Below are positions 38,430-63,353 of a stretch of DNA of 64,000 nt, in pieces. The stretch spans positions 62,001 through 126,000 of the forward strand of contig NZ_JAPWDU010000008.1 of NCBI RefSeq assembly GCF_027257155.1, in the 5' to 3' direction. The translations under genes were made by a program, and so were the position numbers. The number at the start of each line of letters is the position of its first letter. The first letter of the stretch is position 1. This DNA comes from Cerasicoccus sp. TK19100. GTDB taxonomy: Bacteria > Verrucomicrobiota > Verrucomicrobiia > Opitutales > Cerasicoccaceae. The notes beneath the pieces are model-generated. The model was not told where the DNA came from, made no database searches, and was given only the letters and a program-made list of their open reading frames with translations.

Positions 38430-38469
38430 TTACCCGAGCGCTCGACGCTTCACCAATTTACTCGTATCC

Positions 38470-42839: not shown

Positions 42840-45800
42840 TCAATTTTCGTAGATGCGTATGTTGCTGAAAACGCTGACGCCGGAACCATCCGTGTCGTCA
42901 TCGTTCACAAAGATTAGGTAGTCCATCGTGTTGGTCGTGTTGTAGAACGAACCAATCGGGATCGAGTAGATCATTTCGTCGGGCGCGAAGTTCGAATAGT
43001 TGTCCGCCGAGTTGATTGCGATGCCGCCGTTCCAACCTTGCGTGCCGTAGAGTAGTACCGCGCGGTCGTGGTCGCCATAGTAGTTATTCTCGTCCAGGCC
43101 GATGCCGTGCAGTTCGCCAATGGAGTTGCTGCTGAAGGTCACGTCGAGCATCGTGTTGGGCGTCATCGTGTAACCTTCGGGCAGCGCGAACTTATACCAG
43201 GAGTTGCCGGTCAGCGTGATGGCCCGCTTGTCGGCTGAGAGCGTGAAGTTCGCCCCATGGCCGCCTTGGCCATTTTGCCCTGAACCATACGCGGTGATGT
43301 CGGCTGCATTGAGTTGCATGCCCGTTTGCAGGCCCCAGAAGTCGATCATCTGGTCGGCCACTTCCGGGTGTTCCAGGCCCGAGCCATGGTAGGCCCAGAG
43401 CGTGGTGTCGAGCGCGAAGCGGGAGGCCCATTCGATAACGTGCTGGTTCCACACTGCGGCGCCGTCCTGCGAGCCACCAGAGCGCGAATAACCCAGCGGC
43501 GAGAACTCGCCAAGCAGGATGTCGCTGTTGTATTTGGCCAGGTATTCGAGCACCGGCATCATCGCCGCGCCCACGTTCCACTTGTCGTAGAAAGTCGGTT
43601 CGCGGTTCGAGCCATAGTGGTCGTTGCCGTGGTCGACACCAGGCACCCAGAACGGGTAATACGTGTTCGGCGCGTCGCTCGTTTGCTGCGGCACCTTTTG
43701 GTGCGTGAAGGAATACGGCGTGTAGAAGTGGAACGTCGGGCGCATCAGCGGGTCCGGCATTTCCGTATCCTGATACCATAGGCCGTCGGCGCCGCCATAG
43801 GAAATCGCCGAAACGTAGTGCAGCGTGTCGGGGTCGACATTGACAATCGCGTCGCTGACCAACTGCGCCTGCGCCACCCAGTCATCCATCAACGAACCGC
43901 GGTCCAGCGGTGGTTCGTTGTAGAAATCGTAGCCGGCAAGGATGTCCTTATAAGGCTGAGCCAGCGTAGCGAGCTCGACCCACCAGTCGATGTAGTCCTG
44001 CAACTCCTGGCCAACGAAGATGTCGTTATAACTCATGCGGTAGAGCGCGGTATGCGGATCGATGATCGCCTTGATGCCGTTGGCCTCGCACTCAGCGAGC
44101 GCGTCTTCGAACATGTCTTTCAGTGTTTGGCGATCCGTGGTCGAGGCCTGGTAGAGCCGCGCCACCTTCACACCGTAAGCCGCGAGTTCTTCGTAATCGA
44201 CAGTGCGGTCGATCGGCACATTGGCGCCGTGCAACGGCTGGTGCGTGATCGCCGGAATGTCGAAGCTCACTTGCGAGCCAGTGACGTATTCGTAGTCGCC
44301 GTAGTCTTCGCTGGTCGCGATGTTGAACGACGTGGTTTGCACACCGGTGATGCTGAGGTCCGCCAGCACCGCCAAGGCGGGAACCGGCGCAATGCGCTGC
44401 GAAGTTTCGCCGTGAACGCTGCTCGTGGTCAGGTAATTGTAGTCGTAAGTGACGGTATTCCCCTGCATGGATTCGCCGACGGAGACCGGGCAATCGAGCG
44501 CCACCGACGTCCAGAAATCCACGCGGGCCAGCATGTAGGGCCACGTGCTGGGGTTCGCGCCATCGGGCTCGTTTCCGCCCTGCAGTTTGTGGAAGGCGAA
44601 GTTCGTCGCCGACTGTGTTTCGATGATCAGCTCGCGGTCGGTGATGCTGATGTCGTCCACGTATTCGGGAATCACGATCAGGTAATAACCGTCCGTGGTT
44701 TCGAGAATCGCCTTGGCGGAGTCGATGGTCGGCAGTGTGGTCGTGCTCGGCGTGATGGCCGTGTAGCTGCCGCCGGATTGCACCCATAGCTGCTGAATGA
44801 CTTCCGGATACTCCGTCCACGAGGCAATCGGGATGCGCAGGTAGAATTCGTCGGTATTCTTAAAGAGCACGAGGGGCGTCAACACGGAGTAGATGACTTC
44901 CCAGCCATCGTCGTGCAGCCAATGCGTCGTGGTCCAGTTGCGCTCGTGAGTGAACACGTGGTTGTTCGGCACGTTATTAAAGTGCGCCTCGCTGTAGGGG
45001 ATCTGCTTAATCGTGCGCGAGAAAACATAGTCGTAAGAAGGGTCTTCGCGCAAGAAGCTGAAGTTGGACGGCTTCCAACCATCGTGCGTCTCCTCCCACA
45101 CGCTCAACCACGGGTCGGGTTCCAAGTTTTCCCCAAGGTCGGGGTGGTGGCGGAAGCCCATCGTGTCGAAGCTCTTGATCCAGCCCCAGCGATTCTCACC
45201 ACCGGTGTAGGAAACCGGCGGCGCGCCCGCAGCATCTTGCAGCGGCACGAGGTTGGCCAGCTCGGCTTTCACGCCAGCGGACTGGCTGTTGTTGATCAGC
45301 GCCAGCGCGCTGTCCAAGTAACTTTGCGCGGCAGAGTAATTTTGGCCGTGCAGCATGCGGTGGGTGTAATCCTCCTTCGCGGCATGCCAGGCGACGACGG
45401 CCGCGAACCAATTTTGCAGGTCTTCACGGTAGGCGTTGAACTCAGTGATGTTGCTGTTCAGGTAAGCCGTGTGCATCTGGTCGAAGATCGCCTTGCCCGC
45501 GCCCATTTCCAAACCTTCCGGTGACGGGTGCTCCAGCAAAATGCGGTAGCCGTCGAGGTAATCGAGAACCACGCTTTTATTCGGAATCTCGGCGCCCGCG
45601 TAAGCGCTTACGACGACGTCATCGATGCTCGCGTCGATATCACGATTGCCGGTTTGCACTTGGTGCGCGCCGATCAGGAAGACGTCGGCCACGCCGTTGT
45701 CCGCAAAGCCGGAACCGCCGCTGACGTCGATCGTCGACGCTGTGTAGCTGCCGCCGCCGTAGGGCGACTGGTCGAGCGTCAAGGTGGCGTCATTTCCGTT

Positions 45801-47069
45801 CACTTCGATGAGGACATCGATCAGTTTGTCCCGGTCGAGCCGTTCGGAAACGGTCGAGGTCAACTCCGTGCCGGTGATGCTGCCGTTACCGTCCGCCGCG
45901 GCGCCGTCGTATTGATAGACCGAGATGCTGTCCGTCGCAGTGATGTCCACCATGCGCAGATACCAGCCGCGGTTGCCCGGCAAATCGTTGCCCTGAGCGC
46001 GGGGCAGCAGCCAGAGGCCGGAACCAGCGAATGTCCACCCGTTCATTTGCGACAGGTCAAGCGTTGCCTCGATGGTGTAGTTAAGAAGCTCGTCCAGATC
46101 ACGGTCGACGTAGAAGCGCGCGCCGGCGCCGCCGGGGTCCACGCTAGTGACACGAATGGCGTCGCTATCGATGCGCACAGAATCGTCGCTGCCTTCGGTT
46201 TCGATCCAGCCTTTGCCGCGGAACGGCGTAAAGCCGAGCGCATCGTTGTCGGGGCGGTCAAAGTCATCTTCGTAAACGACGCCGGCGTAGACTACGTTGC
46301 TTGGCGTGACGTCGTCGTAGTTCGTCGCCATGCGAATTTCGTCCACCGAGAAGTCGTGCGTGTAGCTGGCGTAGGTGTAGCGTTCGAGCCCGAAGTGGTC
46401 GAAGGAGATGTCCAGCCCGCTTAAGTTGACAATGCCGCTGCCGGGCTCGGTCTCCAGGCCCGGGTTCACGTAAAGCGTAAAGCTGTCGCCGCCAGGCGTC
46501 GTGCTCATGTCAAAGCGCATAACGAAGAACACGGCGTTGTTATCGACGTCGGCAAACTCGGACACAGTATTGCCAAAGGCGCTCAGGCTGAGCTTGCCGT
46601 CGGTGCTCGAATCGGCGCCGAGGGAGAGCTCGCGATAAGAGCTGCCAACGCCGCCATCGTAGAGGCCCATCCTGCGATAGCCAGCAAGATCACTGGCTTG
46701 CTTGTAAACGAAGCTCAGGTAATACGTGCCGCTGGAGGAGTTGTCGAGCGAGGCGGACAGCTGCCGCGCGGCGCGGGAGTTGTTTGAGCCCATGATGAGC
46801 GAGCCGCCGGTGGTGTCGACGGTACCGGTGGAGTCGGCGTAGATCAGTGTGCTGCCACTGACCGCCGGGCCGCCGCCAGCGGTGATGATCCAAGGGCCGG
46901 TAAAACCAGTCACCGTCGGCGCCTGGTTGTAGACATTGTTGGTGGTGTATTCGCCAGCGCTGGCGTTGCCACCAAGCGCGAACGATTCGTCCACGAGCAG
47001 TGCGTTACCCACGAGCGGGCAACTAAGGTATGCGGTAGCCATGCAAAGCCACCTGTAGGGGGTCTTCAT
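42840..47069 (-). CDS. Giant secreted multidomain GH5-type enzyme
   Basis: A 1409-residue protein with a signal peptide (WLCMATAYLSCPLVGNA). Residues about 25-260 are a lectin-like domain nearly the same as the PEP-CTERM protein at 35.0-35.9 kb. Residues 265-500 form a second beta-sandwich opening with YEDDFDRPDNDALG. Then comes a helical linker and a beta region related to the other GH5 protein (YSVLTPLVLFKN, IAPVPALAVL). The catalytic barrel is at about 930-1260 with GYDFYNEPP (acid/base E1052), HFYTPYSFTHQK and ILLGEFSPLGYSR (nucleophile E1188). A C-terminal module starts near SGNSWYKFALPEG (first residues differ slightly) and ends in strands. It should cut a beta-glucan or beta-mannan outside the cell. 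It has no PEP-CTERM tail. Confidence 0.87.
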   Translation of the reverse strand: MKTPYRWLCMATAYLSCPLVGNALLVDESFALGGNASAGEYTTNNVYNQAPTVTGFTGPWIITAGGGPAVSGSTLIYADSTGTVDTTGGSLIMGSNNSRAARQLSASLDNSSSGTYYLSFVYKQASDLAGYRRMGLYDGGVGSSYRELSLGADSSTDGKLSLSAFGNTVSEFADVDNNAVFFVMRFDMSTTPGGDSFTLYVNPGLETEPGSGIVNLSGLDISFDHFGLERYTYASYTHDFSVDEIRMATNYDDVTPSNVVYAGVVYEDDFDRPDNDALGFTPFRGKGWIETEGSDDSVRIDSDAIRVTSVDPGGAGARFYVDRDLDELLNYTIEATLDLSQMNGWTFAGSGLWLLPRAQGNDLPGNRGWYLRMVDITATDSISVYQYDGAAADGNGSITGTELTSTVSERLDRDKLIDVLIEVNGNDATLTLDQSPYGGGSYTASTIDVSGGSGFADNGVADVFLIGAHQVQTGNRDIDASIDDVVVSAYAGAEIPNKSVVLDYLDGYRILLEHPSPEGLEMGAGKAIFDQMHTAYLNSNITEFNAYREDLQNWFAAVVAWHAAKEDYTHRMLHGQNYSAAQSYLDSALALINNSQSAGVKAELANLVPLQDAAGAPPVSYTGGENRWGWIKSFDTMGFRHHPDLGENLEPDPWLSVWEETHDGWKPSNFSFLREDPSYDYVFSRTIKQIPYSEAHFNNVPNNHVFTHERNWTTTHWLHDDGWEVIYSVLTPLVLFKNTDEFYLRIPIASWTEYPEVIQQLWVQSGGSYTAITPSTTTLPTIDSAKAILETTDGYYLIVIPEYVDDISITDRELIIETQSATNFAFHKLQGGNEPDGANPSTWPYMLARVDFWTSVALDCPVSVGESMQGNTVTYDYNYLTTSSVHGETSQRIAPVPALAVLADLSITGVQTTSFNIATSEDYGDYEYVTGSQVSFDIPAITHQPLHGANVPIDRTVDYEELAAYGVKVARLYQASTTDRQTLKDMFEDALAECEANGIKAIIDPHTALYRMSYNDIFVGQELQDYIDWWVELATLAQPYKDILAGYDFYNEPPLDRGSLMDDWVAQAQLVSDAIVNVDPDTLHYVSAISYGGADGLWYQDTEMPDPLMRPTFHFYTPYSFTHQKVPQQTSDAPNTYYPFWVPGVDHGNDHYGSNREPTFYDKWNVGAAMMPVLEYLAKYNSDILLGEFSPLGYSRSGGSQDGAAVWNQHVIEWASRFALDTTLWAYHGSGLEHPEVADQMIDFWGLQTGMQLNAADITAYGSGQNGQGGHGANFTLSADKRAITLTGNSWYKFALPEGYTMTPNTMLDVTFSSNSIGELHGIGLDENNYYGDHDRAVLLYGTQGWNGGIAINSADNYSNFAPDEMIYSIPIGSFYNTTNTMDYLIFVNDDDTDGSGVSVFSNIRIYEN

Positions 47070-49794: not shown

Positions 49795-52700
49795 GTGATC
49801 ACCTCTCCAAAGACTTTGGCCAAACTGGCGCGCATCGAAGCAAATTACCGCGCTCGCATCTTTCTTCCTCAATCGGTGCTCAATTCCGAGTATTTAGAAA
49901 CCAGCGAGCACTGGCGCGCGGTCCCGGCCAAAAATTCCAACTGGCAACACGCCGATAGCGGCCTCAAGTGGGGCAGCTCGGGTAGCAGCGCCTGGTTTCT
50001 CGCTTCCTGGACCGCAGACCAGGATTACCATGAGCCCCTCTTCATCGCAGCCGACACCGGCGGCTGCGAAGCCATGTTCTGGATCAACGGCAAACCTGCA
50101 GGCATCTTCAACCATGCCGATTACAAGCATCAGCGCGGCGACCACGTCGCGCTGCTGCTGACCACATCCGCGCGCGCTGGAGAGACCTTCGAGATCGCTG
50201 TGGAGTCCTACGCCGGTCATGAAATCGTGGGCGTGCATCCCGGCGACACGCCGGAAACTCAGGACGCCTACCGCCCGCCATTCACCCGCGAATATAAAAC
50301 GATCAACCTACTCCGCCGTGACGAACAGGTCATGGACTTCGTGATTGATCTCCACTTGGCACGTACGCTGGAGGAAGGCCTGCCGGAGCGCAATTTTCGC
50401 AAGGGCGAGCTCCTCGCCGCACTGAGCGAAGTCTTCGCCACAATCTGGGAAGAACCCGACACAGTCGAAGAAAATGTCTGGCGTGAGTGCCTACGCCGGG
50501 CGTCCAAAATCCTGAAAACCGTCTTGGCCAAGCGCAATGGCGATTCAGCACCACGGGCGGGGCTCGTCGGCCACTCACACCTCGACACTGCCTGGTTGTG
50601 GACCATCGACGAAACCATCCGCAAATGCGCGCGTACTTATAGCAACGTACTGCGCCTCATGGAGCAGTATCCCGAATATCGTTTTGTTCAGAGCTCTGCA
50701 CTCCACGCAGACTTCATGCGCGAACACTACCCTGAGATCTTCGACGGCATCCAGCGACGCGCGCGCGAAGGCCGCTGGGAGCCCAATGGCGGAGCCTGGG
50801 TTGAGCCCGACGTAAACCTCGCAGGCGGCGAGGCGCTCATCCGCCAATTCATTTATGGTCAAGGCTTCACCCAAGAGCATTTCGGCTACAAGTCGGATGT
50901 GTTCTGGCTGCCCGACACTTTCGGCTACACCGCTGCCCTTCCCCAGATCCTGCTCGGCTGCGGCATCCGCTACTTCCTGACCACTAAACTGAGTTGGAAC
51001 GAGACCAACAGCTTCCCCTATGACACCTTCTGGTGGGAAGGTATCGACGGCTCAAAGGTATTTACACACTTCAACGACATCCATTGCGCTCCCGACCCCG
51101 GCACGCTGCTCAACAAGCTTGCTGGCTCTGGCCCCAAAGACTTCCGCACCACAGAAAACTGTGTGCGCCACCCTGACGTCAACCAGATGCGCCTTGTCTC
51201 CTTCGGCAAGGGCGACGGCGGCGGCGGGCCCGACTTTACCATGCTCGAGGTGGCCCGCCGTGTGGGGGACATCGACGGCTGCCCGCGTGGCGAATACACC
51301 ACCGTCTCCGACTTCATGCAGGAATTGGAAAACCACGCCGTCCGCGCCCCCCTTTATTGCGGCGAGCTTTATGTGGAGAGCCATCGCGGCGTCTTCACCC
51401 AGCAGGCCTCCATCAAGCGACTAAACCGCGCCGCAGAGTTCGCCCTACACAACCTCGAATACTGTGCCGCGCGCGCTCAATTAACCGACGTAAATGTCGA
51501 TCGCGCACGGCTCGAACGCCTTTGGAAAACTCTGCTCCTAAACCAATTTCACGACATCCTGCCAGGCACCTCAATCCCTGAAGTTCACGATCGCGCCATC
51601 CGGGAGCTCAGCGCTCTCGTCGCCGATGCACGCGCCTTCAGCACCGAGTTGCTGGATAAATTATCTGACTCCGCCACCGACGCGATCAGCCTACACAATA
51701 CCTTGAGCTGGAACAGAGAATCCGCATGGATCCCCGCCGAGTTTCCTCTTCCCGCCAACGTCGTTGCGCAAACCATCGATACGCCGTGGGGTGAGCGTCG
51801 CCACATCCTGGCCGGGCTCAATCTGCCACCGCTCGGCGCCTCCGTATTGCCAATCAACCGCATACCGCAGGATACCAACAAAGCGGCAGCCGAAACCGAT
51901 TGCCCTTTTACCTTCGACGGTTCCGTGGTCACAACGCCATACGCGAATATCCGACTCGATGAGGCCGGGTGTATCGACTCGTGGATCGACCTGGCCAGCG
52001 GACGCGAGCTGCGCGCCCCAAACCGAGGCCCACTCAACAACCTGGTCTTCGGCGAAGACATTCCAGCACAATGGGACAATTGGGACATTGACGCCGACCT
52101 CGAAAGCAAGCTCGCGCCTCTCGTATCCAAGTGCGAAATAAAGGTCGCCGCCAAGGGCTCACTGCAACTACGCCTGCGGCGCAAAGTGCAGCTGACACCA
52201 CGCTCCTGGCTGGAGCAGGATATGGTATTTCACGCCCACACCGCACGCGTCGACTTCGAAACTGCGGTCCAGTGGGAGGAGCCGCATCGCTACCTGGGGG
52301 CGGAGTTTCCACTCGCTATTCATAGCCCAACGGCGCGGCACGAAATCCAGTTTGGGCACCTGCAGCGCGGCACCCATGCAAACTTCTCCGAGGACCGTGC
52401 GCGTTTCGAAGTCAGCCAACATAAGTGGAGCGATCTGTCGGAGGCGGACTTCGGCGTCGCCTTGCTCAATGATGGTAAATACGGCCTCTCGGTTCGCGGC
52501 GGCAAGATTCGCCTGTCCCTCATGAAAGGTGGTGGACACCCGGACCCGCGCGGCGACCGCGGCTTCCACTTTTTCACCTACTCGCTGCTGCCTCATCATG
52601 GCGGTTTTTCAGTCGAGTCGGTCGTGCGGCCTGCTTATGAGCAGAATACGCCCCTGTTGATTCACACCAGCGCCACACGCGAAACGGCATCGCTAATCGA

Positions 52701-52923
52701 CAACGTCGCTCCCAATGCTGTCGTGGAAACCATCAAGCCCGCCGAGGACGGCCGAGGTATTATTGTGCGCCTTTACGACGCCGCCGGTGCTGCCTCAAAG
52801 CTCGCCTTCACGCCAGCCGCATCACTGACCCAGCAAACGGATTGCAACCTTCTTGAGGAACCGGTTGACACGCCGGAATGGCATCGCCCCTTTGGCATCC
52901 GTAGCGTCCGCCTGACTCGATAA
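49795..52923 (+). CDS. GH38 alpha-mannosidase
   Basis: A 1042-residue protein with no signal peptide, read from GTG at 49795; no suitable ATG occurs near the start. An N-terminal jelly-roll-like region precedes the GH38 catalytic domain at about residue 260: VGHSHLDTAWLW holds the first zinc ligands, ALHADFMREHYPEIF and GRWEPNGGAWVEPDVNL follow, and FWLPDTFGYTAALPQIL supplies the nucleophile aspartate and metal site. A helical bundle (NQFHDILPGTSIPEV) and the long beta-sandwich C-terminal domains complete the family layout at the usual length. It removes alpha-linked mannose in the cytoplasm. It is divergent from the oxidoreductase/esterase pair. Confidence 0.9.
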   Translation: MITSPKTLAKLARIEANYRARIFLPQSVLNSEYLETSEHWRAVPAKNSNWQHADSGLKWGSSGSSAWFLASWTADQDYHEPLFIAADTGGCEAMFWINGKPAGIFNHADYKHQRGDHVALLLTTSARAGETFEIAVESYAGHEIVGVHPGDTPETQDAYRPPFTREYKTINLLRRDEQVMDFVIDLHLARTLEEGLPERNFRKGELLAALSEVFATIWEEPDTVEENVWRECLRRASKILKTVLAKRNGDSAPRAGLVGHSHLDTAWLWTIDETIRKCARTYSNVLRLMEQYPEYRFVQSSALHADFMREHYPEIFDGIQRRAREGRWEPNGGAWVEPDVNLAGGEALIRQFIYGQGFTQEHFGYKSDVFWLPDTFGYTAALPQILLGCGIRYFLTTKLSWNETNSFPYDTFWWEGIDGSKVFTHFNDIHCAPDPGTLLNKLAGSGPKDFRTTENCVRHPDVNQMRLVSFGKGDGGGGPDFTMLEVARRVGDIDGCPRGEYTTVSDFMQELENHAVRAPLYCGELYVESHRGVFTQQASIKRLNRAAEFALHNLEYCAARAQLTDVNVDRARLERLWKTLLLNQFHDILPGTSIPEVHDRAIRELSALVADARAFSTELLDKLSDSATDAISLHNTLSWNRESAWIPAEFPLPANVVAQTIDTPWGERRHILAGLNLPPLGASVLPINRIPQDTNKAAAETDCPFTFDGSVVTTPYANIRLDEAGCIDSWIDLASGRELRAPNRGPLNNLVFGEDIPAQWDNWDIDADLESKLAPLVSKCEIKVAAKGSLQLRLRRKVQLTPRSWLEQDMVFHAHTARVDFETAVQWEEPHRYLGAEFPLAIHSPTARHEIQFGHLQRGTHANFSEDRARFEVSQHKWSDLSEADFGVALLNDGKYGLSVRGGKIRLSLMKGGGHPDPRGDRGFHFFTYSLLPHHGGFSVESVVRPAYEQNTPLLIHTSATRETASLIDNVAPNAVVETIKPAEDGRGIIVRLYDAAGAASKLAFTPAASLTQQTDCNLLEEPVDTPEWHRPFGIRSVRLTR

Positions 52924-53009: not shown

Positions 53010-54161
53010 TTAAGTCTCAACAGTCACAGCTTTCTTTGAAGACTCACGAATGACCAGGTGGCAGGGTAAGCGATTATTCCGGTGCTCGATCTCGACACCT
53101 TCCAGGAGCTTCACAATCAGTTCCACAGCGCGCGCGCCGCAACGACGCAAAGGTTGGTGCACACTAGTCAATGGCGGAGAAGAAACCGCCGCTTGAGGCA
53201 AATCATCAAAACCGACGATTGCCACATCTTCAGGCACGCGCCAGCCACGTTCTTTGCATCGTTTCATGGCGTTTAAAGCGATAATATCATGCAGGCAAAT
53301 AATCGCCTCTGGCGGCTCACGCATCGCCATAAAGACATCAATTTCCTGAATACCCTGTTTCTCAGGCTCGCGCTTTCCAACCGTCAGGAAATACTCCGGT
53401 GGTAAATCCAAGCCATGTTCCTTCATCGCTTCAAGGAAGCCTGCCTCGCGCTCGCAGGCAACTTCAGTCGAAAGACACGTTAGGAATGCAATGCGTCGGT
53501 ATCCTTGATCGATTAAATGATTGGTGAGGTCCACCATAGCCTCCTTATTCTGGCTCGAAACACTCACGTGTCCATCTTGCGAATAATCATCGACCAGCAC
53601 AACTTTTTGCCCGGTCTGAATAAGGGCATTCACAATGCTCTTGGTGTGCTTATGAGTTTCAGAAGTTTGCAGCGGCACGACAAGTGTGCCCGCCACTCGG
53701 AGCTCATTTAAGCGTATTACCTGATCCATTGCCGTGCTCATTTCGTTTCTGGCATTCGCGAGGATCAACTGATAACCGAGGCGAGCCGCAGCGTCCTGAG
53801 CACCACGAATCATCAAATCATACGCACCTGAAACCCCTTCATGGTGTGAAACCAGCAAAGCGAGTAGCTTCTGCTGGGACTTGCTTCGCTCAATATTGAC
53901 AAAGGTGCCTCGTCCGCGAAAACGGACCAGCAAACCCTCCTCAACCAAATCCGCGATCGCTTTGCGAACGGTTGTCCGGGACAAGTTCGTATCGCGGCAT
54001 ATCTCAAGCTCGGGCTTTAGCTGCTGGCTTTGCCCCACCTCACCACTCAGCACCATTCGCCTGATCATTGATTTTGCAGCTTGATAACGAGTGGAATCAT
54101 CACACTGAACAAAATTTGACTGACGGATAAACTCTTCCTCTTGATAATCTGAACTGCTCAT
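53010..54161 (-). CDS. GntR-type DNA-binding, LacI-type effector hybrid regulator
   Basis: A 383-residue regulator. Residues about 22-90 form a GntR winged helix (YQAAKSMIRRMVLSGEVGQS, LSRTTVRKAIADLVEEGLLV, RGRGTFV). Residues 100-380 are a LacI/periplasmic-binding-protein-like domain ending in VAIVGFDDLPQAAVSSPPLT. This is the AraR-type fusion, so the effector is probably a sugar. It follows the GH38 gene tail to tail and stands before the GH5-like and SGNH genes, which it may control. A palindromic site was not evident in the 54.16-54.43 kb gap apart from the terminator. Confidence 0.88.
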   Translation of the reverse strand: MSSSDYQEEEFIRQSNFVQCDDSTRYQAAKSMIRRMVLSGEVGQSQQLKPELEICRDTNLSRTTVRKAIADLVEEGLLVRFRGRGTFVNIERSKSQQKLLALLVSHHEGVSGAYDLMIRGAQDAAARLGYQLILANARNEMSTAMDQVIRLNELRVAGTLVVPLQTSETHKHTKSIVNALIQTGQKVVLVDDYSQDGHVSVSSQNKEAMVDLTNHLIDQGYRRIAFLTCLSTEVACEREAGFLEAMKEHGLDLPPEYFLTVGKREPEKQGIQEIDVFMAMREPPEAIICLHDIIALNAMKRCKERGWRVPEDVAIVGFDDLPQAAVSSPPLTSVHQPLRRCGARAVELIVKLLEGVEIEHRNNRLPCHLVIRESSKKAVTVET

Positions 54162-54366
54162 TGCTTTCGCGTTTTAATTGTCTATGCGTAAAAATGGACC
54201 TCGAAATTGCGTAAATATGTATCTTATAAAAACATAGCGAAGGCTGCAGTGTCAATCCTCCCCTCGGCTTAGTATCAGCACGCCACAAACTTAGCTGGTC
54301 GATTGTGCACTTAATGCTGATCCAAAGGTATATGCCGACTATCCACAGCGACGCTGATATCAATAA

Positions 54367-54429: not shown

Positions 54430-57400
54430 CTATTCCAAAACTAACTCCGCTCGACGCCAGGTATCAGCGCCCACAGGTAGTAGCAACTCACCCGCTGTAT
54501 AAGTGAGTGTTTGTGTGCCATCCCGGCTGTGCAATTTCCAAACTTTTTCCCCGGTTGGCTCCTTCACACCTTGCAATGACAAAGACGGCCCAGGTAGATC
54601 ATCGCCAGAACTATCGATGTAGGTCCGGCTCAAGAGCATGCGCTCGCTTTCGTCGAGATTTAGATTATCAGCCGTTACAAGCATGACCGTAGCAAAGCCC
54701 GACGTATTTCCAATCTGCAAGCACTGCAGGCCATCTGGAGCGTTTGAATCTAAAAAACCACTGAATACTTCTGCCTGATCCGCGGCTGCAGTGAGTTGTT
54801 CGCGGGTCAGGTCTTTGCGAATCTCTCCCGTATCCGAGACCAGCACATTCCCTGCTGGACTCGCCGCCATATAAGGCTCAGCAGCCTGAGATGATGGGAC
54901 GCTCCCCAGTACACGGCGAATTTCATGCTTACTCTGCCAACCCGGCGCATAAGCCTCCAACTGATTCACTGTGCCATGATAACTCGAAGACCAAGCATTA
55001 TCAGGCGAAGTAATTGTGATTGGCGCATCCGAACGCGCAAACAGCCCACGGCGGAAGATAGTTGCAGATGTAAGCATATGATCCAGCATAACCTCGTCGC
55101 AGATCAAGTCACCGAAGTCGCTCGTCTCTCGAGTTACATGGGGCCCATAGGCAGCCCCAACATTTCCGTATGAGGGACGTGTCTCAACGGAATGATTGCC
55201 ATGATTATAGGCAAACCATGCAAGTCCAGACCATCCATGCAATGAGCCATAGGTAATAAATGATGCCGGCAATAAGCTACGAATAGGATCGTCAACATCC
55301 GCATATTGCCTCACCCACACATTGGGAGAGATTTCAATTCGATCCTCGCGCAAGCCAAGTTCGCCAATGAAGTATGGCTTACCATACACTGCCATTTTAC
55401 CTGCCTTAACCAACCAATCTTCCACATTGCTAAAAATATTAGGATCTACATAGGCATGCTGCTCCATGTAATCATTCTCTTCGGCAAAAAGCTCAAATGG
55501 ACGATTTCCACGCCATAAATTCGAGAAGATGACTGGCACCTCGTCATACCCCAAGCTATTGATAAAATCGTTCATCCGCTCACTGTAATCTGCGTCCAGT
55601 TTATTTAAGAAATCGGATCGCAATTCCTTATAGCTAGTCGTCTTGATACTCCCCGGACTGCTTTGCCCAACTGATAACGCGTAGCTTTCCCACTTCGCCT
55701 GCAACTTTGCTTGGAAGTAGTTCATTCCGTCATCATCGTACCAGTTCGGATTTACAAAAGTATACTCACTTGAAAATTCATTGGAGAGCTCGAACGCAAT
55801 CACCTGATCATCGTCCCCATAGCGAAGTCCGGTATACGGGTTTACGCGACCAAGAAGATCTCTGCAGAATTCCTGATTCATCAGCTCAACCCGCTCATCA
55901 AAGACAGCCAAAGCCTTGCGCTGATCCATGCCTCCTTGCGTATTCAAGGTCGCAATATCTTGCCTCCAATCCTGATCATCCTGAGTGGACACCGATAATA
56001 TACCTACATCATCGGGCCTGTATTGGCGAAGCCATATGTTGCTGAACATAACGTTGATCCCCCGCTCACGCAGCTTCGCATTCATGTAATCAAAACGATC
56101 CCACGCAATTTCGTTGGGCTCACGTGACTCGCCATCAGTTGCGGTTCCCTCATAGGCCGCCAGACTGATCGTGCTATGCAGCAAAGGATTGGAATGAGAA
56201 TCAGACAACCCATCTTTCTGCCAATTCCAATCGTTGCTCCGGCGGAGCATATGATGCCAACGTACACAATTAACACCGAGCTCGACCAGGTGATCCGCAA
56301 AATCATCAGCGACATCGTGGCTGGGATAGAATGCAACCACATTCATCCCCCAGAACTTTACCGGCTGTTGCCCTTCATCGACATACTGATCGTCTGCTAT
56401 CGACAATGGCGCGACTCCATGGCGACGGGCGAAACCGATGTTGCTCGTCGTGATCTCCATCGCGTTCAAGTAGGTGTATTGATTATTACCACCATCTGCA
56501 GTGATGCTCAATGAGAACTCACCCAATAAATTGGGCCGTATCGATGGAATCGTGGCAGAGCGGCTGGTGTTGCTGGAGGCGTTTAACGTGGTCGATTTAA
56601 CCGTATCTCCCGCAAGTGTGTAGACAGCAGTGCGATTATCAGAAACCCCCGCTCTAGCTCCCACAAAGGTGAAGGAATAGTCTTTTTCGGGATCAAACCC
56701 GCTAAATTTGAACGTAGCCGTCACACTACTGCTCCACCAAAATCCGTCCTGGATTGCAGCGTCGGCAAAATCTGGCGACAAAGGTGCTTCGGGAGTTGTG
56801 CCACTAGTCAGTTGTCCTGCACTGCTTCCAGTCAATTGCACTGTCCAACCGGTATCAACGCCCGTGTAGAAATCGCCCAACGACACCTCAGGACCGCCAG
56901 TCGTTGCATCTGAGAAATTTGTCCACCCGTAATCTGTAGTTAAATTGGCTGTCGATCCAAAATCGATGCAAGCGTACTGATCAGACTCAACCTTGAGGGC
57001 ACCAAGGTAAAACCAGTCGCCGCGCGAACTCCTATCTTCCTGAAACTCTAAACGAATCTTACCGAGATGGTCAGGGAACACTCCTGAAAGAACCGATATG
57101 ACAGATGTATTATTCGCCGCATCCAATATCGCGGTAGTCTTTGCTTCACCATACGCAGTAACGTGCGTAGTCCGCGACGGATCCGTTGCATTACCAGTCA
57201 TCCTTGAGGCCGAAAAAGTTAACGTGTAGGATTGGTCTGGATGTAGGCCAGATAATTCAATCACTGGCCGAGTTCCGTTATTCGCATAAAATGAGTCTTT
57301 CATTGCCTCAGCAGTAAAGTCGCCGTTTGCGGCATTGCTACCACTGCTATTGATTCCGTCAAATCCACTCTGGAAGCTGAGATCAACATGACTATCGACA

Positions 57401-58290
57401 TGTGACGCGTAGTCGATCAGATCGTAATTTACGCCGATCGCACTAGTAGTGATATTATTCCAGCCAGCATCCGCGGTTGGATAACTGCTCGATCCAAAAT
57501 CGATATACAGCGTGGTCAATTGCGGAACTTGGGGCGGCAACGAACTTCCAAGCGGAACAACATCTAAAAAGCTATCTCCGATACGTAGCTCATCCATCAT
57601 CTGCTCATGAGCGCGAAAGCTAATATAGGCCTCAGAAATATTGACCAGTCCAGTGTTAGCACTGTCATTTAAACTGAAACCGCTGCCAGATGTTGGGACG
57701 GTCACACCATCAACAACTGGATTAATCCATAGCTCTCCAGCGCTCCCTAGCTTAAAACAATAAACCAGCAGAAACACATCCGCACCTACCGTCGAAAATT
57801 CGCCTCCGGGAATATTACCCAGAAATTTAGATGTATGGCTGCTGACATTGTTCCAGCTCTTACCTGCTCCATAATTCTGAACACTGCCCCATGCGTTACG
57901 CTGCAAGCGAATCCCGAATCCACATTCACTGCTAGAGCTGACTCCTCCGGGAGCCCTCAACAACATACTGACCCAAACTTCCGACTTCGCACTCAGGTCA
58001 ATATCATTGAAATCAGCCAGCAAAGATCGCGTACCGCTTCCCCAACTCGTCGTTGAGCTAGCACAACCGCCATTCACTTGTAGACTGCCATAAGTCAAAC
58101 CTGTGGGCAGATATAGTGCGTCATCATCTACAGACGCAGTACTCCAGTTTCCTGACGATGCCGCTGTTAGCTTATCCGGATCATTTCCGTACTCAAAACC
58201 TTCATAGTAGAGGAGGTCTGCCGTCATGCTTTGAAGGGTAATACACAAGCATACTAAGACACCCACAATTGATTTATTACAAATAATCAT
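54430..58290 (-). CDS. Secreted multidomain GH5-like (clan A) glycoside hydrolase
   Basis: A 1286-residue protein with a signal peptide (SIVGVLVCLCITLQSMTA). Residues about 25-255 form a LamG-like sandwich starting YYEGFEYGNDPDKL. Two copies of another beta domain follow (about 260-440 and 445-610), each with (Y/C)IDFGS, W.N and a closing (Y/T)YL.A. Residues 630-1100 are a (beta/alpha)8 enzyme: KFWGMNVVAFYPSH, GVNCVRWHHML, IAFELSNEFS (acid/base E838) and YFIGELGLRE (nucleophile E977). A C-terminal beta domain ends the protein. The exact GH family (GH5 or relative) and substrate are unsure. The region is poorer in GC than the other GH genes. The 58.29-58.46 kb upstream gap is very AT-rich and probably holds the promoter. 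Confidence 0.78.
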   Translation of the reverse strand: MIICNKSIVGVLVCLCITLQSMTADLLYYEGFEYGNDPDKLTAASSGNWSTASVDDDALYLPTGLTYGSLQVNGGCASSTTSWGSGTRSLLADFNDIDLSAKSEVWVSMLLRAPGGVSSSSECGFGIRLQRNAWGSVQNYGAGKSWNNVSSHTSKFLGNIPGGEFSTVGADVFLLVYCFKLGSAGELWINPVVDGVTVPTSGSGFSLNDSANTGLVNISEAYISFRAHEQMMDELRIGDSFLDVVPLGSSLPPQVPQLTTLYIDFGSSSYPTADAGWNNITTSAIGVNYDLIDYASHVDSHVDLSFQSGFDGINSSGSNAANGDFTAEAMKDSFYANNGTRPVIELSGLHPDQSYTLTFSASRMTGNATDPSRTTHVTAYGEAKTTAILDAANNTSVISVLSGVFPDHLGKIRLEFQEDRSSRGDWFYLGALKVESDQYACIDFGSTANLTTDYGWTNFSDATTGGPEVSLGDFYTGVDTGWTVQLTGSSAGQLTSGTTPEAPLSPDFADAAIQDGFWWSSSVTATFKFSGFDPEKDYSFTFVGARAGVSDNRTAVYTLAGDTVKSTTLNASSNTSRSATIPSIRPNLLGEFSLSITADGGNNQYTYLNAMEITTSNIGFARRHGVAPLSIADDQYVDEGQQPVKFWGMNVVAFYPSHDVADDFADHLVELGVNCVRWHHMLRRSNDWNWQKDGLSDSHSNPLLHSTISLAAYEGTATDGESREPNEIAWDRFDYMNAKLRERGINVMFSNIWLRQYRPDDVGILSVSTQDDQDWRQDIATLNTQGGMDQRKALAVFDERVELMNQEFCRDLLGRVNPYTGLRYGDDDQVIAFELSNEFSSEYTFVNPNWYDDDGMNYFQAKLQAKWESYALSVGQSSPGSIKTTSYKELRSDFLNKLDADYSERMNDFINSLGYDEVPVIFSNLWRGNRPFELFAEENDYMEQHAYVDPNIFSNVEDWLVKAGKMAVYGKPYFIGELGLREDRIEISPNVWVRQYADVDDPIRSLLPASFITYGSLHGWSGLAWFAYNHGNHSVETRPSYGNVGAAYGPHVTRETSDFGDLICDEVMLDHMLTSATIFRRGLFARSDAPITITSPDNAWSSSYHGTVNQLEAYAPGWQSKHEIRRVLGSVPSSQAAEPYMAASPAGNVLVSDTGEIRKDLTREQLTAAADQAEVFSGFLDSNAPDGLQCLQIGNTSGFATVMLVTADNLNLDESERMLLSRTYIDSSGDDLPGPSLSLQGVKEPTGEKVWKLHSRDGTQTLTYTAGELLLPVGADTWRRAELVLE

Positions 58291-58464
58291 CGCAGTTTAT
58301 TTTTGGGGGTTATGTTGTAGATATGCGCCTTCGCTCAGCTCCGGCGCAGTAGAAAATCAGACAAAAATACTTAAATAATTACTTCCCTTTTAAATATTAT
58401 TTTCGTATATGAATATACTTTATATCTTATTTGATATTAAATATAAAAGTGAGTGATGCCGGTC

Positions 58465-60867
58465 TCATTCGAGAACAAACAACCGAATGAATCGCTGAGC
58501 GCCATCTGAGAGCTTAGTATTGTCTCGTGCACAATACCTGGTTGCCGAGTCCTCGATGACAGTTACGTGCGGTCCACCTTGGTTCCAGACAGACAGGTCA
58601 CCACTTACTTGCGCTTCAAGCAAACCATGGGCACTTGGATTGCGAACCACATCGACCATCAAATAAATCGCATCCCCATCCTGGTGTAGCATAATGTCAG
58701 GCGCGGCCGAATGCGCAGAAGGATCTGTCCCAAGCTCGAACTCAATGATGTTTGCCGTGCCATCTCCATCCGGATCAGATTCGCCATCCGCATCTGCTCC
58801 AACCAGCCCATGGCGGGCCGCCCAAAAACCAAAATCACTGGCATAGGGCATCTGCTCATTAATTCTTAAAAAGCCGATATAGCCATAAGCTTGTTCAACG
58901 CCCTCGGCATCCAACGGTTCGACCAGGAGCGTTAATCCACCGAAGTCATCGACAACGATGTCGGACAAAGTCACGTAATCATCTACGTTATCACCTACAT
59001 CGATGTAAACCGATTGACCTCCCACAGAGTAGCGCGTAATACGCGGCCCAACTCCACTGCGAGACGCAAACAGATCCATTTCGATGATGGCGGTAGGATC
59101 AAGTCCTTCAATCCGCAACGCCCCCACGCCCCCACCATTAACATAAAAAGCATCACTAGTGACTTCCTGCGGCGCGAGAATTGAGCCCTGTTTGCCCGCT
59201 GTAGTAATCCCCGAGAACGCATCGATTACCTCGACCGAAACTGCTGTCGGATGAGTCGTTCCATCACTAAGGACGACCACATCCAATCGAGAGCCAGCTG
59301 CCGTTTGGGATAGTGAATTCCAGTAATGGCCACCGGAATCAGCCACCGACGCCAATAAATCGGCCGAACCCAGATCCAGCAGCCAAGTCCGACTCAGCAC
59401 CTCATTGGTCATTACCAACGCTGCCGGACTCGATATATAGGACTCCCCTTCTTCACCATAGATTCTTGCCTCATATTTTCCAGCATGACTGAGATCAACG
59501 GCATCCAAAACCAACTCAGCTGAAACTTCCCCGACTAGCTCAACGCCGTTATGATCCCAGCGGATTTGTGTGGCGAGGCCATCATACTCCACTGAAAAAG
59601 TGACGCGCTCCCCAACAAATGCCGCAACATCACGGGGGGATTTGATAATCCGCAAAGGTGGCACTTCACCTTCATAGACAATCCCCGCACCCATCCCAGC
59701 GAGGATTTCCTGAGACCAAGCGGCCCGCCCTCCGGTCCCCAAGTGGATTCCATCCGCCGAAAGCGTGTGCTGATTTTTCAGGAAATAATCATAGGCATCG
59801 ACAATGGGCTTGTTTGCCACCGAATCAAACGCGCTGGGCACAAGCTCCTCAACCAATGGATCAACAATTTGCAGATTGTAAGGCAATGATCCATTACCTT
59901 CATTGATGCCACCAAGCACGGGAGGATCGTCCTTATAATCACGAAACGTAAGTCGCATCGGTATCGGTTGTATACCAGCATCTATCAGCGTCGTGTAGAT
60001 GCGGCGCAAATTTGCCTCAATCTCCGCATTCGATTCAGAGCCCTCTACATATGGCCGATCGGCGCTAACGTCATTACCACCAAGATGCACAAAGGCATAC
60101 TTTGCCCGCGGGTGAAGTGCAATTGCCTGCTCTAGTCGATTCGGCGACCCTTGTAACCATGAGTTACTGTAGGTGCCACTAATCCCCAGGTTAAATAGAA
60201 CCGGGTCCCAAGTATCGCCGTACAGCTCCTGAACCCGCTCCTTGAACAGCCTCATATCAGTGCCCTGACTACTGATCGAAGCCCCGATCATCAGCCAGTA
60301 ATCATCCCTCCCAAGCCTATCGTAGGCATGCAGCTCTAAATTACGTATATCCATTTTGCTTACGGAAGGATTCGCAGTAATCCTCAGACGAAGCCATGCC
60401 GAGCTTTCCATGACAGGCAGTTCTACTTTCTGGGCCCGCCAGATCATATTCTCATTTTGCTGCCAAAGGGTGATTGGCAAAGGGCTCCAGCTACCATCGA
60501 CTCCGTCCTGAGAATCAGAAGACACTTCCGCCTCAACCAAGTAGTCTTTGATGGTTGCGGTAAAGGTCATGAAGCCGCCTTCTAACATCGCAGGAAGCTG
60601 CATCGTGCCAATCCACTCTTCGCCCCCCGCTATTCGAATACTTGCTGGTGTGAGACCTTCAAGCATCGCATCAGAAAAAGCACCCGCACTGTGCGTATCA
60701 TATGCTGCTAGCGGCTTCACCCGCAGACCAGTTGCCGGAGCAGCTGGACTAGACGAAGCGTAGAAAAAGACACTGATAGCGACAACAGAGAGTCGTTGAA
60801 ATATTCCCCGTTTCACAGGGAAACGCACTCTCTGCCTGATAAAAGCAAGGGGCCAGTTGAGATACAT
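58465..60867 (-). CDS. Secreted SGNH/GDSL-type esterase with Ig-like and accessory domains
   Basis: An 800-residue protein with a signal peptide ending near SSPAAPA. A beta domain comes first (to about residue 185), then an SGNH hydrolase: DDYWLMIGASIS (nucleophile serine), FNLGISGTYSNSW, VHLGGNDVS (block III) and SADGIHLGTGGR (Asp-His of block V). Next is an Ig-like domain (VTFSVEYDGLATQIRWDHNG), and then the same accessory domain found in the GH5-like neighbour and in the small PEP-CTERM protein (LLDLGSADLL, RITRYSVGGQS, GYIGFLRIN). The C-terminus carries a DADGESDPDGDGTAN-type acidic loop. It likely deacetylates a polysaccharide. It is one of three adjacent genes sharing the accessory domain. 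Confidence 0.82.
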   Translation of the reverse strand: MYLNWPLAFIRQRVRFPVKRGIFQRLSVVAISVFFYASSSPAAPATGLRVKPLAAYDTHSAGAFSDAMLEGLTPASIRIAGGEEWIGTMQLPAMLEGGFMTFTATIKDYLVEAEVSSDSQDGVDGSWSPLPITLWQQNENMIWRAQKVELPVMESSAWLRLRITANPSVSKMDIRNLELHAYDRLGRDDYWLMIGASISSQGTDMRLFKERVQELYGDTWDPVLFNLGISGTYSNSWLQGSPNRLEQAIALHPRAKYAFVHLGGNDVSADRPYVEGSESNAEIEANLRRIYTTLIDAGIQPIPMRLTFRDYKDDPPVLGGINEGNGSLPYNLQIVDPLVEELVPSAFDSVANKPIVDAYDYFLKNQHTLSADGIHLGTGGRAAWSQEILAGMGAGIVYEGEVPPLRIIKSPRDVAAFVGERVTFSVEYDGLATQIRWDHNGVELVGEVSAELVLDAVDLSHAGKYEARIYGEEGESYISSPAALVMTNEVLSRTWLLDLGSADLLASVADSGGHYWNSLSQTAAGSRLDVVVLSDGTTHPTAVSVEVIDAFSGITTAGKQGSILAPQEVTSDAFYVNGGGVGALRIEGLDPTAIIEMDLFASRSGVGPRITRYSVGGQSVYIDVGDNVDDYVTLSDIVVDDFGGLTLLVEPLDAEGVEQAYGYIGFLRINEQMPYASDFGFWAARHGLVGADADGESDPDGDGTANIIEFELGTDPSAHSAAPDIMLHQDGDAIYLMVDVVRNPSAHGLLEAQVSGDLSVWNQGGPHVTVIEDSATRYCARDNTKLSDGAQRFIRLFVLE

Positions 60868-61080
60868 TCAACTTTATGTTCTTTTTAATTACATATTAGT
60901 CAAATAAAAAACAAAACCTTGGGTCAATCCGCTCCATCACAAACCTGCAAAGCATTCTACCGGTTAGTTGAGGCGATTTCATATTTGTATTTTTTTAATT
61001 CTTTTCTTGATTTCATCGGCGACCTTCGTTTCAATTCTCGAAAAATCTAACCCTAAACTCCTCACACCAAGTAAATACCC

Positions 61081-61761
61081 ATGAAAACTCTCATCACTAC
61101 TTGCATTGCTGTAGTCGGCCTTAATTGCAGCGCATTAGCTCAGGTCGTAATGGTAAACTTTAGCAGCACTAACAGCACCTCTCCCAGTGCACCCGGCGCC
61201 GAGTGGAATAACATCACCAATTTCACAACAGCCACTAGCGATGTTGCACTCATTGACTACACCACAGGCCTTGATACTGGCTTCAGCCTGTCCATTACAG
61301 ATTCTTTTAAAGACATCGGCGGACAGTCTTTTGCGGCCTATGGCAACTTCACTTCCCAGTCCCTCAGCAGCTACTTCTACGGCGACTCAGCGGATCCGAA
61401 CGCAGCTATCGAAATCACTGGCCTCGACCCAAATACCAAATACACTTTTGATCTTGTAGCTGCACGCGATACGACTACCAACAGAACCACTGAGTATACA
61501 CTCACCGGCGATTCAGTCACTATCGTTACCAATGCCGCAGGCACGCCCTTTTCAACCGCAAACATTGCGACTGCCAGCGCCATCTCACCCGATGCCACTG
61601 GCAAGATTACGATCGACATAAAAGTTGCGAGCGACTCTAGCAGCAGTTTCTTCTATTTGAACGCCATGCAAATCACAGCGATCCCTGAGCCCAGCACGTA
61701 TGCATTGGCTGTCGGCGCTTTGGGACTGGGCATGGTAATGCTTCTCAAACGTCGCAAGTAG
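61081..61761 (+). CDS. PEP-CTERM protein made of the shared accessory domain
   Basis: A 226-residue protein with signal peptide (KTLITTCIAVVGLNCSALAQ) and PEP-CTERM tail (IPEPSTYALAVGALGLGMVM then KRRK). The body reads VNFSSTNSTSPSAPGAEWNN, LIDYTTGLDTGF, ITGLDPNTKYTFDLVAARDT, TEYTLTGDS and SFFYLNAMQIT. This is the same order as in the twin domains of the GH5-like enzyme (VDTGWTV, GFDPEKDYSFTFVGARAG, AVYTLAGD, YTYLNAMEIT). So it is the solo, surface-attached form of that domain. The AT-rich gap ahead (60868-61080) should hold divergent promoters for it and for the esterase. Confidence 0.88.
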   Translation: MKTLITTCIAVVGLNCSALAQVVMVNFSSTNSTSPSAPGAEWNNITNFTTATSDVALIDYTTGLDTGFSLSITDSFKDIGGQSFAAYGNFTSQSLSSYFYGDSADPNAAIEITGLDPNTKYTFDLVAARDTTTNRTTEYTLTGDSVTIVTNAAGTPFSTANIATASAISPDATGKITIDIKVASDSSSSFFYLNAMQITAIPEPSTYALAVGALGLGMVMLLKRRK

Positions 61762-62171: not shown

Positions 62172-63353
62172 TTACGATCCTGGCTGGGCGTCAATTAACG
62201 AAATACGCTGCGCCACACATTCAGCCGAATAAAAAGGGTCTTCTGGCGTGTTAACACAGTAGTCTACGAGCCGATCAATAGTGCTGTAGGCCACATGCGT
62301 TCGCGTATCACCGGAAGCATAATAAATTAGAACGGAGTCATCAGCCTGCTTCACCCATCCGTTTGCAAATGTTATATTACACAAATCGCCTACACGTTCG
62401 TCTTCCCAAGCTGCGATGAAGTGCCCTGCGGGAGAATGAATCACCTTCCATGGCTCGACCAGGTCGGTCATAAAAATATAGAGCACATAACGTAAGCCAG
62501 TCGCCGTATTTCGGACGCCGTGCGCAAGGTGCAGCCAGCCCTTTGATGTTTTGATTGGCGCAGGCCCTTGCCCATTCTTGACTTCCTTAACAGTATGATA
62601 AACGCGTCTCTCCATCACACGCTCATCGTGTATGACTGCAGCGCACATGGAGTCGCAAAAACCATAGCCAATGCCACCACCAGATCCTGCATCAATAAAG
62701 CCATCCTGTGGACGTGTGTAGAGCATGTATCGCCCATCAATAAACTCAGGGTGTAGCACGACATTCCGTTGTTGAGGAGAAGGCGTGACCAGATCTGGCA
62801 ATCGCTCCCAATGTTCCAAGTCTTTAGTCCGAACGATACCGCATTGCGCTTCCGCCATGGACGTATCCCCTTCTGGAGCATTGGGGTCCTTTCGCTCAGT
62901 GCAAAACAGCCCATAAACCCAGCCATCTTCATGCTTCACCAAACGCATATCATAGACATTGGTGTCCAATCTTTCGGCGCTCGGTATGACGAGAGGCTTC
63001 TGACGGAATACGAAGCCATCAATTCCCGTTTCGGATTCCGCTAAAGCAAAGAAAGATTTTCTGTCATTCCCCTCCATCCGAACAGCCAACACAATTTTGC
63101 CATTACACAAAATCGCGCCCGCATTGAATGCGGCGTTCACCCCCTGACGCTCCAAAAGAAAAGGATTGCGCGACTGATCGAAATCATAACGCCATTCCAG
63201 TGGAGCGTGATCTGCGGTGACCACCGGATTCAGGAAGCGAAGATACACTCCATTGTCCCAACGCTCATCCACCGAGTTACGGCGTTTCAGCAAATTCTCA
63301 TGCTTAGAGCGCAAGCGTGCAGCCCTTGTTTCGAATGACTCAACTTTAAACAT
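62172..63353 (-). CDS. GH130 phosphorylase, mannosylglucose-phosphorylase-like
   Basis: A 393-residue cytoplasmic protein with the GH130 five-bladed propeller. The motifs NAAFNAGAILCNGKIVLAVR, RMEGNDRKSFFALAESETG (in part) and ERLDTNVYDMRLVKHEDGWV, and later HGVRNTATGLRYVLYIFMTD, are those of subgroup GH130_1, whose known member phosphorolyses 4-O-beta-mannosyl-glucose (EC 2.4.1.281) into mannose 1-phosphate and glucose. Length fits the family. The subgroup call rests on motif memory, so mannobiose or mannooligosaccharide phosphorylase remains possible. With the GH5, GH38 and esterase genes it points to use of mannan-type glycans. Confidence 0.8.
   Translation of the reverse strand: MFKVESFETRAARLRSKHENLLKRRNSVDERWDNGVYLRFLNPVVTADHAPLEWRYDFDQSRNPFLLERQGVNAAFNAGAILCNGKIVLAVRMEGNDRKSFFALAESETGIDGFVFRQKPLVIPSAERLDTNVYDMRLVKHEDGWVYGLFCTERKDPNAPEGDTSMAEAQCGIVRTKDLEHWERLPDLVTPSPQQRNVVLHPEFIDGRYMLYTRPQDGFIDAGSGGGIGYGFCDSMCAAVIHDERVMERRVYHTVKEVKNGQGPAPIKTSKGWLHLAHGVRNTATGLRYVLYIFMTDLVEPWKVIHSPAGHFIAAWEDERVGDLCNITFANGWVKQADDSVLIYYASGDTRTHVAYSTIDRLVDYCVNTPEDPFYSAECVAQRISLIDAQPGS

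Follow-up and report, generated by a model that had tools for sequence, protein, structure and literature searches.

Surface glycan-binding proteins of Bacteroidota are SusC/SusD-linked lipoproteins. For the accessory module of Bacillus subtilis YxiM (PDB 2o14), which we take to be an SGNH hydrolase, we know of no free, sorted twin, no search having been aimed at one. It was an association with exopolysaccharide loci that brought the PEP-CTERM/EpsH system to light, and PEP-CTERM proteins are described as typically lacking discernible homology to other proteins, with fewer than 10% of them matching Pfam (Haft 2006, PMC1569441). For Akkermansia, 23 PEP-CTERM proteins have been predicted, nine of which were detected by mass spectrometry (PMC4960237). 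Here we analyse a stretch of 64,000 nucleotides from Cerasicoccus sp. TK19100 (the window; contig NZ_JAPWDU010000008.1, positions 62,001 to 126,000), in which three adjacent genes, encoding proteins that we call E, S and P, share one accessory module: E and S carry it within long proteins, and P is a solo copy with a PEP-CTERM tail. Cerasicoccus is a marine genus of the Verrucomicrobiota. We give an even chance to the reading that exosortase sorting brings P to the surface, as a copy of the glycan-binding module of the enzymes, and that it acts there as a surface glycan-binding protein.

One module in three adjacent genes

The module, about 175 residues long, occurs twice in E (1286 amino acids (aa); 54430..58290, minus strand), once in S (800 aa; 58465..60867, minus strand) and once in P (226 aa; 61081..61761, plus strand). 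The E copies span residues ~261-438 (E1; 56974..57510, minus) and 439-617 (E2; 56440..56976, minus), the S copy residues 494-675 (58843..59388, minus) and the P copy residues 22-200 (61144..61680, plus). In local alignments, each of the six copy pairs scored above all 500 composition shuffles, with shuffle Z values ranging from 6.6 for the weakest pair (E2-S) to 24.2 (E1-P). Columns invariant across the four copies (E1 numbering) are S7, W17, F74, G88, P91, R103, R113, G121, G150 and Y168; these agree with the residue motif given in an earlier note on this DNA, whose placement of four copies in the three proteins is likewise borne out. A profile of the four copies, run against window frames of at least 60 aa, found no fifth copy at E < 0.1 (next best E 0.66); in the whole genome the same profile gives 17 matches at E ≤ 0.01, the window's four included.

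Judged by eye, E, S and P all have signal peptide-like N termini. In E there follow a LamG-like module (residues 24-247; 57550..58221, minus), named from its look and unmatched in Pfam, the two copies described above and a presumably catalytic core (residues 626-1286; 54430..56415, minus). S is an SGNH/GDSL hydrolase with an Ig-like domain; it exceeds the Lipase_GDSL_2 cut-off (35.6 versus 32.9 bits) and stays under that of Ig_3. The tail of P, PEPSTYALAVGALGLGMVMLLKRRK, comprises a C-terminal PEP, a hydrophobic stretch and a basic end, and this PEP-CTERM sorting signal (61678..61755, plus) scores 20.8 bits against PF07589, whose cut-off is 20.7.

Predicted fold of the module

Scanned against Pfam and NCBIfam, the module had no family cover, with just sub-threshold matches to fn3, CBM_X2 and similar; none of 32 module copies matched PF11721 (Malectin) at E ≤ 0.1, and a sequence search of the PDB with the module returned no credible match. 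AlphaFold models of the P copy (predicted local distance difference test (pLDDT) 91.8, predicted template modelling score (pTM) 0.89) and the S copy (pLDDT 89.8, pTM 0.87), which are not fully independent because they were built from one common set of 22 sequences, are both mostly beta. Malectin-like domains top the VIA lists of structural matches for both models, with Z values of up to 13.2 (P) and 13.4 (S) for the plant ones, and the absence of a family from these lists is not read as exclusion. The P model matches ANXUR1 (5y96) with Z 13.2, root-mean-square deviation (rmsd) 2.7 and 150 aligned residues, YxiM (2o14) with Z 12.7, rmsd 2.5 and 133 aligned, and human malectin with Z 9.9, rmsd 3.1 and 141 aligned; matches to the S model include 6d8g (Z 13.6), FER (13.4), YxiM (12.9) and malectin (11.6). 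A Bacteroides beta-glucuronidase is matched through its C-terminal domain (Z 12.2 for P, 13.6 for S), and a next tier at Z ~8-9.7 holds CBM35, CBM36, CBM61, a pectate-lyase CBM and clostridial toxin receptor-binding domains (up to 9.7). Sequence identity in these structural alignments is 10-19%.

We read the module as an undescribed family with a predicted malectin-like beta-sandwich of the carbohydrate-binding type. The earlier note had proposed comparing the folds of all four regions; for the two that were modelled, the P and S copies, strand order is alike and the top PDB match groups are the same. With the predicted fold alike in both, the note's idea of a single accessory module common to three adjacent genes stands.

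Solo copies and copies within longer proteins form two kinds of protein

At E ≤ 0.001 the module is found in 14 of 54 genomes: this one (G000), eight of the nine others of its genus and family (G009 being the sole one without a match at that threshold) and five of 44 from the order. A different profile at E ≤ 1e-5 places it in 32 of 288 genomes of the phylum. The module is frequent in the family, with 17 matches in this genome and 24 in G004. Named records add copies with PEP-CTERM-like tails in Phycisphaerales and Planctomycetales, as well as two Bacteroidota, Lishizhenia and a Saprospiraceae metagenome-assembled genome, with frames of 611 and 618 aa.

Using a tail rule that combines a pattern with a hydrophobicity test, we found a PEP-CTERM tail on all 29 module proteins of at most 400 aa in the 14 genomes and on none of the 63 longer ones, the latter bearing on the earlier note's call for a genome scan for further fused enzymes. 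In 40 genomes of the phylum, the tail is present on 51 of 52 module proteins of at most 400 aa versus 1 of 108 longer ones (Fisher 1e-39, relatedness ignored), three of the 108 being cut at the 3′ end with their tails out of view. The two exceptions are a tailless 238-aa protein (G268) and a tailed 618-aa protein (G127). Outside these counts stand a long protein of G248 (contig C78), which is cut at both ends, was dropped by HMMER's filters and has a module scoring 148.7 bits (other such omissions are possible), and an 87-aa frame of this genome (G000:C1:301007) with a module end and PEP-CTERM. Families on the longer module proteins include alpha/beta-hydrolase, SGNH/GDSL, DUF4886, sulfatase, alginate lyase, GH39 and many Ig/PKD domains; several long module proteins match no recognised catalytic family. 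Larger arrays also occur: an 876-aa protein has four module copies and two neighbouring proteins have two each (L150:373-2652 and L151:7998-12347), and in G029 (C52; L089-L091) three solo PEP-CTERM copies are clustered with three module proteins of 1249-2584 aa.

Solos are encoded near longer module proteins

Of the 51 solos, 14 have a longer module protein encoded within 3 kb, where random placement expects 0.37 and 200,000 simulations never gave more than 5; because several pairs are orthologous, independent pairings number fewer than 14. Eleven pairs are on the same strand, and in ten of these the solo is upstream (binomial 0.006). Measured between stop-to-stop frames, a single stop codon separates solo and partner in G220, G277 and G317, and the first Met of the partner comes 7-24 codons later. 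The partner in G220 has a GDSL domain, and those in G030, G283 and on contig C4 of this genome have DUF4886; a sulfatase that is module-bearing as well is encoded two genes away from the solo in G277 and G317. In this genome, a longer copy is found within 3 kb of three of five solos. The same holds for two of the 100 PEP-CTERM places without the module, both of which neighbour pairs already counted.

Locus mates also resemble each other: their similarity exceeds that in every one of 5000 permutations, and this holds with eight loci after removal of near-duplicates. Among 136-139 copies, the mate ranks 1-4 in eight of the 14 pairs and 7, 10, 15, 34, 44 and 64 in the others. P is nearest to E1 in its own genome (rank 1 of 10; overall rank 4 of 137), and in the tree E1, E2 and P form a group with an SH-aLRT (approximate likelihood-ratio test) support of 92, one long-branch row included. 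Solo and long labels are clustered on the tree (15 changes versus a shuffle mean of 39), a result that is silent on the direction of fusion; 59 of 132 inner branches are open and 37 are starred. Domain pieces with fewer than 100-130 profile positions or less than 60 bits were left out of the trees and similarity counts.

The modules of E are separate PEP-CTERM-type proteins in two relatives

In two distant relatives, G142 and G228, the counterpart of E is three separate genes, encoding the core, a LamG-like PEP-CTERM-type protein and a malectin-like PEP-CTERM protein. The cores align with E residues 618-1253 (G142) and 625-1285 (G228) in frames of 699 and 704 aa, and the LamG-like parts with residues 11-247 (324-aa frame) and 21-247 (275-aa frame), the LamG-like solos being 42-45% identical to E. 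The malectin-like solo frame measures 243 aa in G142 and 266 aa in G228, the latter being too weak for the search with E and found otherwise. In both genomes the LamG-like and malectin-like genes are adjacent, on one strand and in E's order, and both products have PEP-CTERM-type tails; the malectin-like protein of G142 scores 30.4 bits with PF07589 (cut-off 20.7), and the tail of its G228 counterpart was called by the tail rule alone. The core gene is in the same stretch in G142 and 14 kb from the LamG-like gene in G228. Both split loci further contain homologues of two neighbours of E in the window, namely a GntR/LacI-type regulator (53010..54161, minus; 54.0 and 52.3% identical) and a protein of the GH38 alpha-mannosidase family (49795..52923, plus; 35.6 and 37.4%). 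The LamG-like module is matched at E < 1e-100 in three of 288 genomes, fused in this one and solo in G142 and G228; weaker matches occur in G008 (1e-40, 313-aa frame) and in G029 and G214 (near 1e-11). Since E is split into genes in G142 and G228, the same modules can form the N-terminal part of the enzyme or stand as sorted proteins of their own.

Homologues of the E core elsewhere are in frames of 450-730 aa, with no room for the modules too; a paralogue in this genome beyond the window (G000:C8:129869-131638) is 41% identical and its frame is likewise too short. Other E homologues are found in G234, G150, G061, G178 and G179. The earlier note had called E 'GH5-like', a label that we set aside as unproven: Pfam and NCBIfam give the core no glycosidase match, and neither PF00150 nor any other GH5 model is matched, though two other window proteins do match. 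Using hhalign, a weak test here with two-sequence profiles, the core and the window's two GH5 domains were paired with a probability of 0.2. An NE and a GEL motif are conserved between the E core and its homologue, which we take to be the look of a clan GH-A enzyme.

A putative operator in the split loci

No clear signal came from a scan for palindromes between genes, and the putative operator TGTATT-N5-AATACA was taken from words shared among these loci; because the pattern was picked on these same loci, genome-wide counts weigh more than local ones. Locally, L167 (19 kb) has five sites with up to two mismatches where 0.38 are expected (0 of 200 shuffles had as many), and L171 has three where 0.63 are expected (5 of 200 shuffles). 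Genome-wide, with up to one mismatch, G228 has 21 sites, four of them in the locus, versus four for a backward control pattern, and G142 has 14, three of them in the locus, versus eight. G228 (4.4 Mb) has just two perfect sites, one 5′ of the LamG-like PEP-CTERM gene and the other 5′ of the regulator gene, and G142 has a single one, again 5′ of the regulator gene; in each of these genomes a one-mismatch site precedes the aligned core by no more than 0.3 kb. This genome has three one-mismatch sites, of which C8:131905 is likewise 5′ of the E core paralogue (start codon not fixed). In the window, weak copies of the putative operator with two mismatches each, upstream of the regulator gene (54218..54234, plus) and between the divergent S and P genes (60986..61002, plus), are suggestive only.

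Other PEP-CTERM proteins and window features

PF07589 is matched 105 times in this genome, with 86 matches over the cut-off and many in frames of 200-350 aa. The earlier note had pointed to a second window locus with a solo PEP-CTERM copy of an enzyme module, and this is confirmed: the 288-aa protein at 35013-35879 ends in a PEP-CTERM-type tail and shares 49.8% identity, across 255 residues, with the N terminus of the 1409-aa GH5 protein at 42840-47069, making a second sorted solo/enzyme case with a different module. A 227-aa protein (37746-38429) resembles the N-terminal part of the next-encoded GH5 protein (38395-41397) with 23% identity and E 1e-13, and this GH5 protein and that at 42840-47069 are homologous to each other. 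Two adjacent small homologues at 23255-24019 and 24064-24759 are 39% identical, one with a PEP-CTERM tail and one without. Elsewhere in the window, 6593-29545 is an alpha-glucan-type region with two GH57 matches, two alpha-amylase-domain proteins, a GH31 protein with CBM25 repeats, GH66 and a MalK-like ABC ATPase.

Discussion

The GH38 and GH130 families point to mannose-containing glycans. We propose that the module binds a glycan, which probably contains mannose given that the GH38 gene and one of the GH130 mannoside phosphorylase family (62172..63353, minus) lie next door. E and S would use the module to hold on to their substrate, and the exosortase/PEP-CTERM pathway would carry P to the surface of the cell or into the outer matrix, and there P would capture the same glycan for the same pathway, as a surface glycan-binding protein does; capture by P and cleavage by E and S of one glycan would go together. 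In this proposal, glycan binding, the ligand, the surface location of P and co-regulation in this genome are what we infer. A broader version is more tentative, and we hold it to be possible but somewhat doubtful: in Verrucomicrobiota and relatives, PEP-CTERM sorting would provide for surface glycan capture by a single pathway whose modules can be swapped between a surface-sorted free form and an enzyme-fused form, joined in one species and divided between anchored modules and a bare enzyme in another, under one operator.

Several observations weigh against P as a surface glycan-binding protein. Foldseek alone ranks Cry toxins, iota toxin Ib and agarase CBM6 first among 24 matches at E ≤ 0.001, with TM-scores of at most 0.47; plant malectin-like domains bind peptides too, and a carbohydrate-type fold is not proof of binding. 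The five TIGR02602 exosortase matches in this genome reach at best 92.5 bits against a cut-off of 105.55. The tails of the LamG-like solos in the split loci score 15.7 and 19.0 bits, below the PF07589 cut-off. Sites with two mismatches to the putative operator number three in the 64 kb window versus 11 in 395 kb of controls (~1.8 expected), and no site with up to three mismatches lies 5′ of E. The direct partners in G008, G029, G268, G277 and G317 match no enzyme family. The permutations cross genomes, so that relatedness helps their result; within genomes, mate ranks are mixed (1/12, 3/12, 1/10, 1/13, 2/3 and 1/2), and eight of the 14 pairs have no other same-genome copy for comparison. Most PEP-CTERM proteins examined do not share the pattern: just four of 44 small ones have a larger homologue in 626 kb of this genome, comprising 30 stretches of which ten were chosen for the module itself, with homologues counted inside stretches only. 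A rule that every PEP-CTERM protein has an enzyme twin is accordingly unsupported (four of 44, three within 12 kb, versus 10 and three of 204 other small genes).

Local duplication, moreover, could yield pairing and mate similarity alike, and 37 of the 51 solos have no longer copy within 3 kb. Both points bear on a neutral account, in which a generic module is duplicated locally and fused or tailed by chance, and solo and enzyme have no joint function. The high frequency of the module here and in G004 and the many open branches of the tree fit that account as well. Against it stand the near-exclusive presence of the tail on solo copies, the upstream position of the solo in ten of 11 same-strand pairs, with one stop codon between frames in three genomes, the split E with its conserved neighbours and putative operator, and the enrichment of longer copies near solos of this genome relative to other PEP-CTERM places; on balance, we consider it unlikely.

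Two further accounts were weighed. The module might pair with itself; sorted P would then tether E and S to the cell as a scaffold that lacks both cohesin and dockerin. The nearby, sequence-matched solo and long copies of the same locus, the two copies in E and the protein contacts that plant malectin-like domains join would all suit such docking. In G142 and G228, however, the E homologue lacks the module and yet a solo is encoded in the same locus, so that docking is unneeded there, and we judge this account improbable. Alternatively, the solos could bind the cell's own exopolysaccharide and build biofilm, the enzymes' module having another ligand; the discovery of PEP-CTERM/EpsH through exopolysaccharide loci (PMC1569441) would favour this. 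In two relatives, by contrast, the locus of the solos looks catabolic, with GH38 and a regulator of the sugar type, and among the solos elsewhere whose neighbourhoods were annotated, some lie beside GDSL, DUF4886 and sulfatase genes; such a matrix role seems quite unlikely to us.

If the broader version holds, Sus-type binding proteins would have a counterpart based on exosortase, and some orphan PEP-CTERM proteins a first concrete job. That tailed proteins and add-on modules of enzymes can trade places is a hint at the role of surface proteins that are largely unexplained. PEP-CTERM function has long been open, and this group comes with partners, a regulator, a predicted fold and a putative operator; with ectodomains, partners and a putative operator defined, binding, location and co-expression are directly testable. 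Among the titles and abstract openings returned by keyword searches of an open-access collection, with subscription journals outside this scope, we found no report of a PEP-CTERM twin of an enzyme module.

In its predicted fold, the module (P and S copies, Z 9.9-13.6) resembles malectin and malectin-like domains (PF11721, CBM57; plant CrRLK1L ectodomains), from which it differs in sequence, with no malectin profile match in 32 copies and 10-19% identity. YxiM has the same kind of module on an SGNH protein (Z 12.7 and 12.9); there it is N-terminal (residues 15-158 in the alignments), whereas the module of S is C-terminal to the hydrolase. P bears the tail of PEP-CTERM proteins, but its ectodomain doubles as an enzyme module, unlike the typical members without homology described in the original report (Haft 2006, PMC1569441). 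In its proposed role, that of a non-catalytic surface protein encoded beside catabolic enzymes and a regulator, P would be like the surface glycan-binding proteins of Bacteroidota polysaccharide utilization loci, differing from them in that sorting is of the PEP-CTERM type and in that the module is common to the enzymes themselves.

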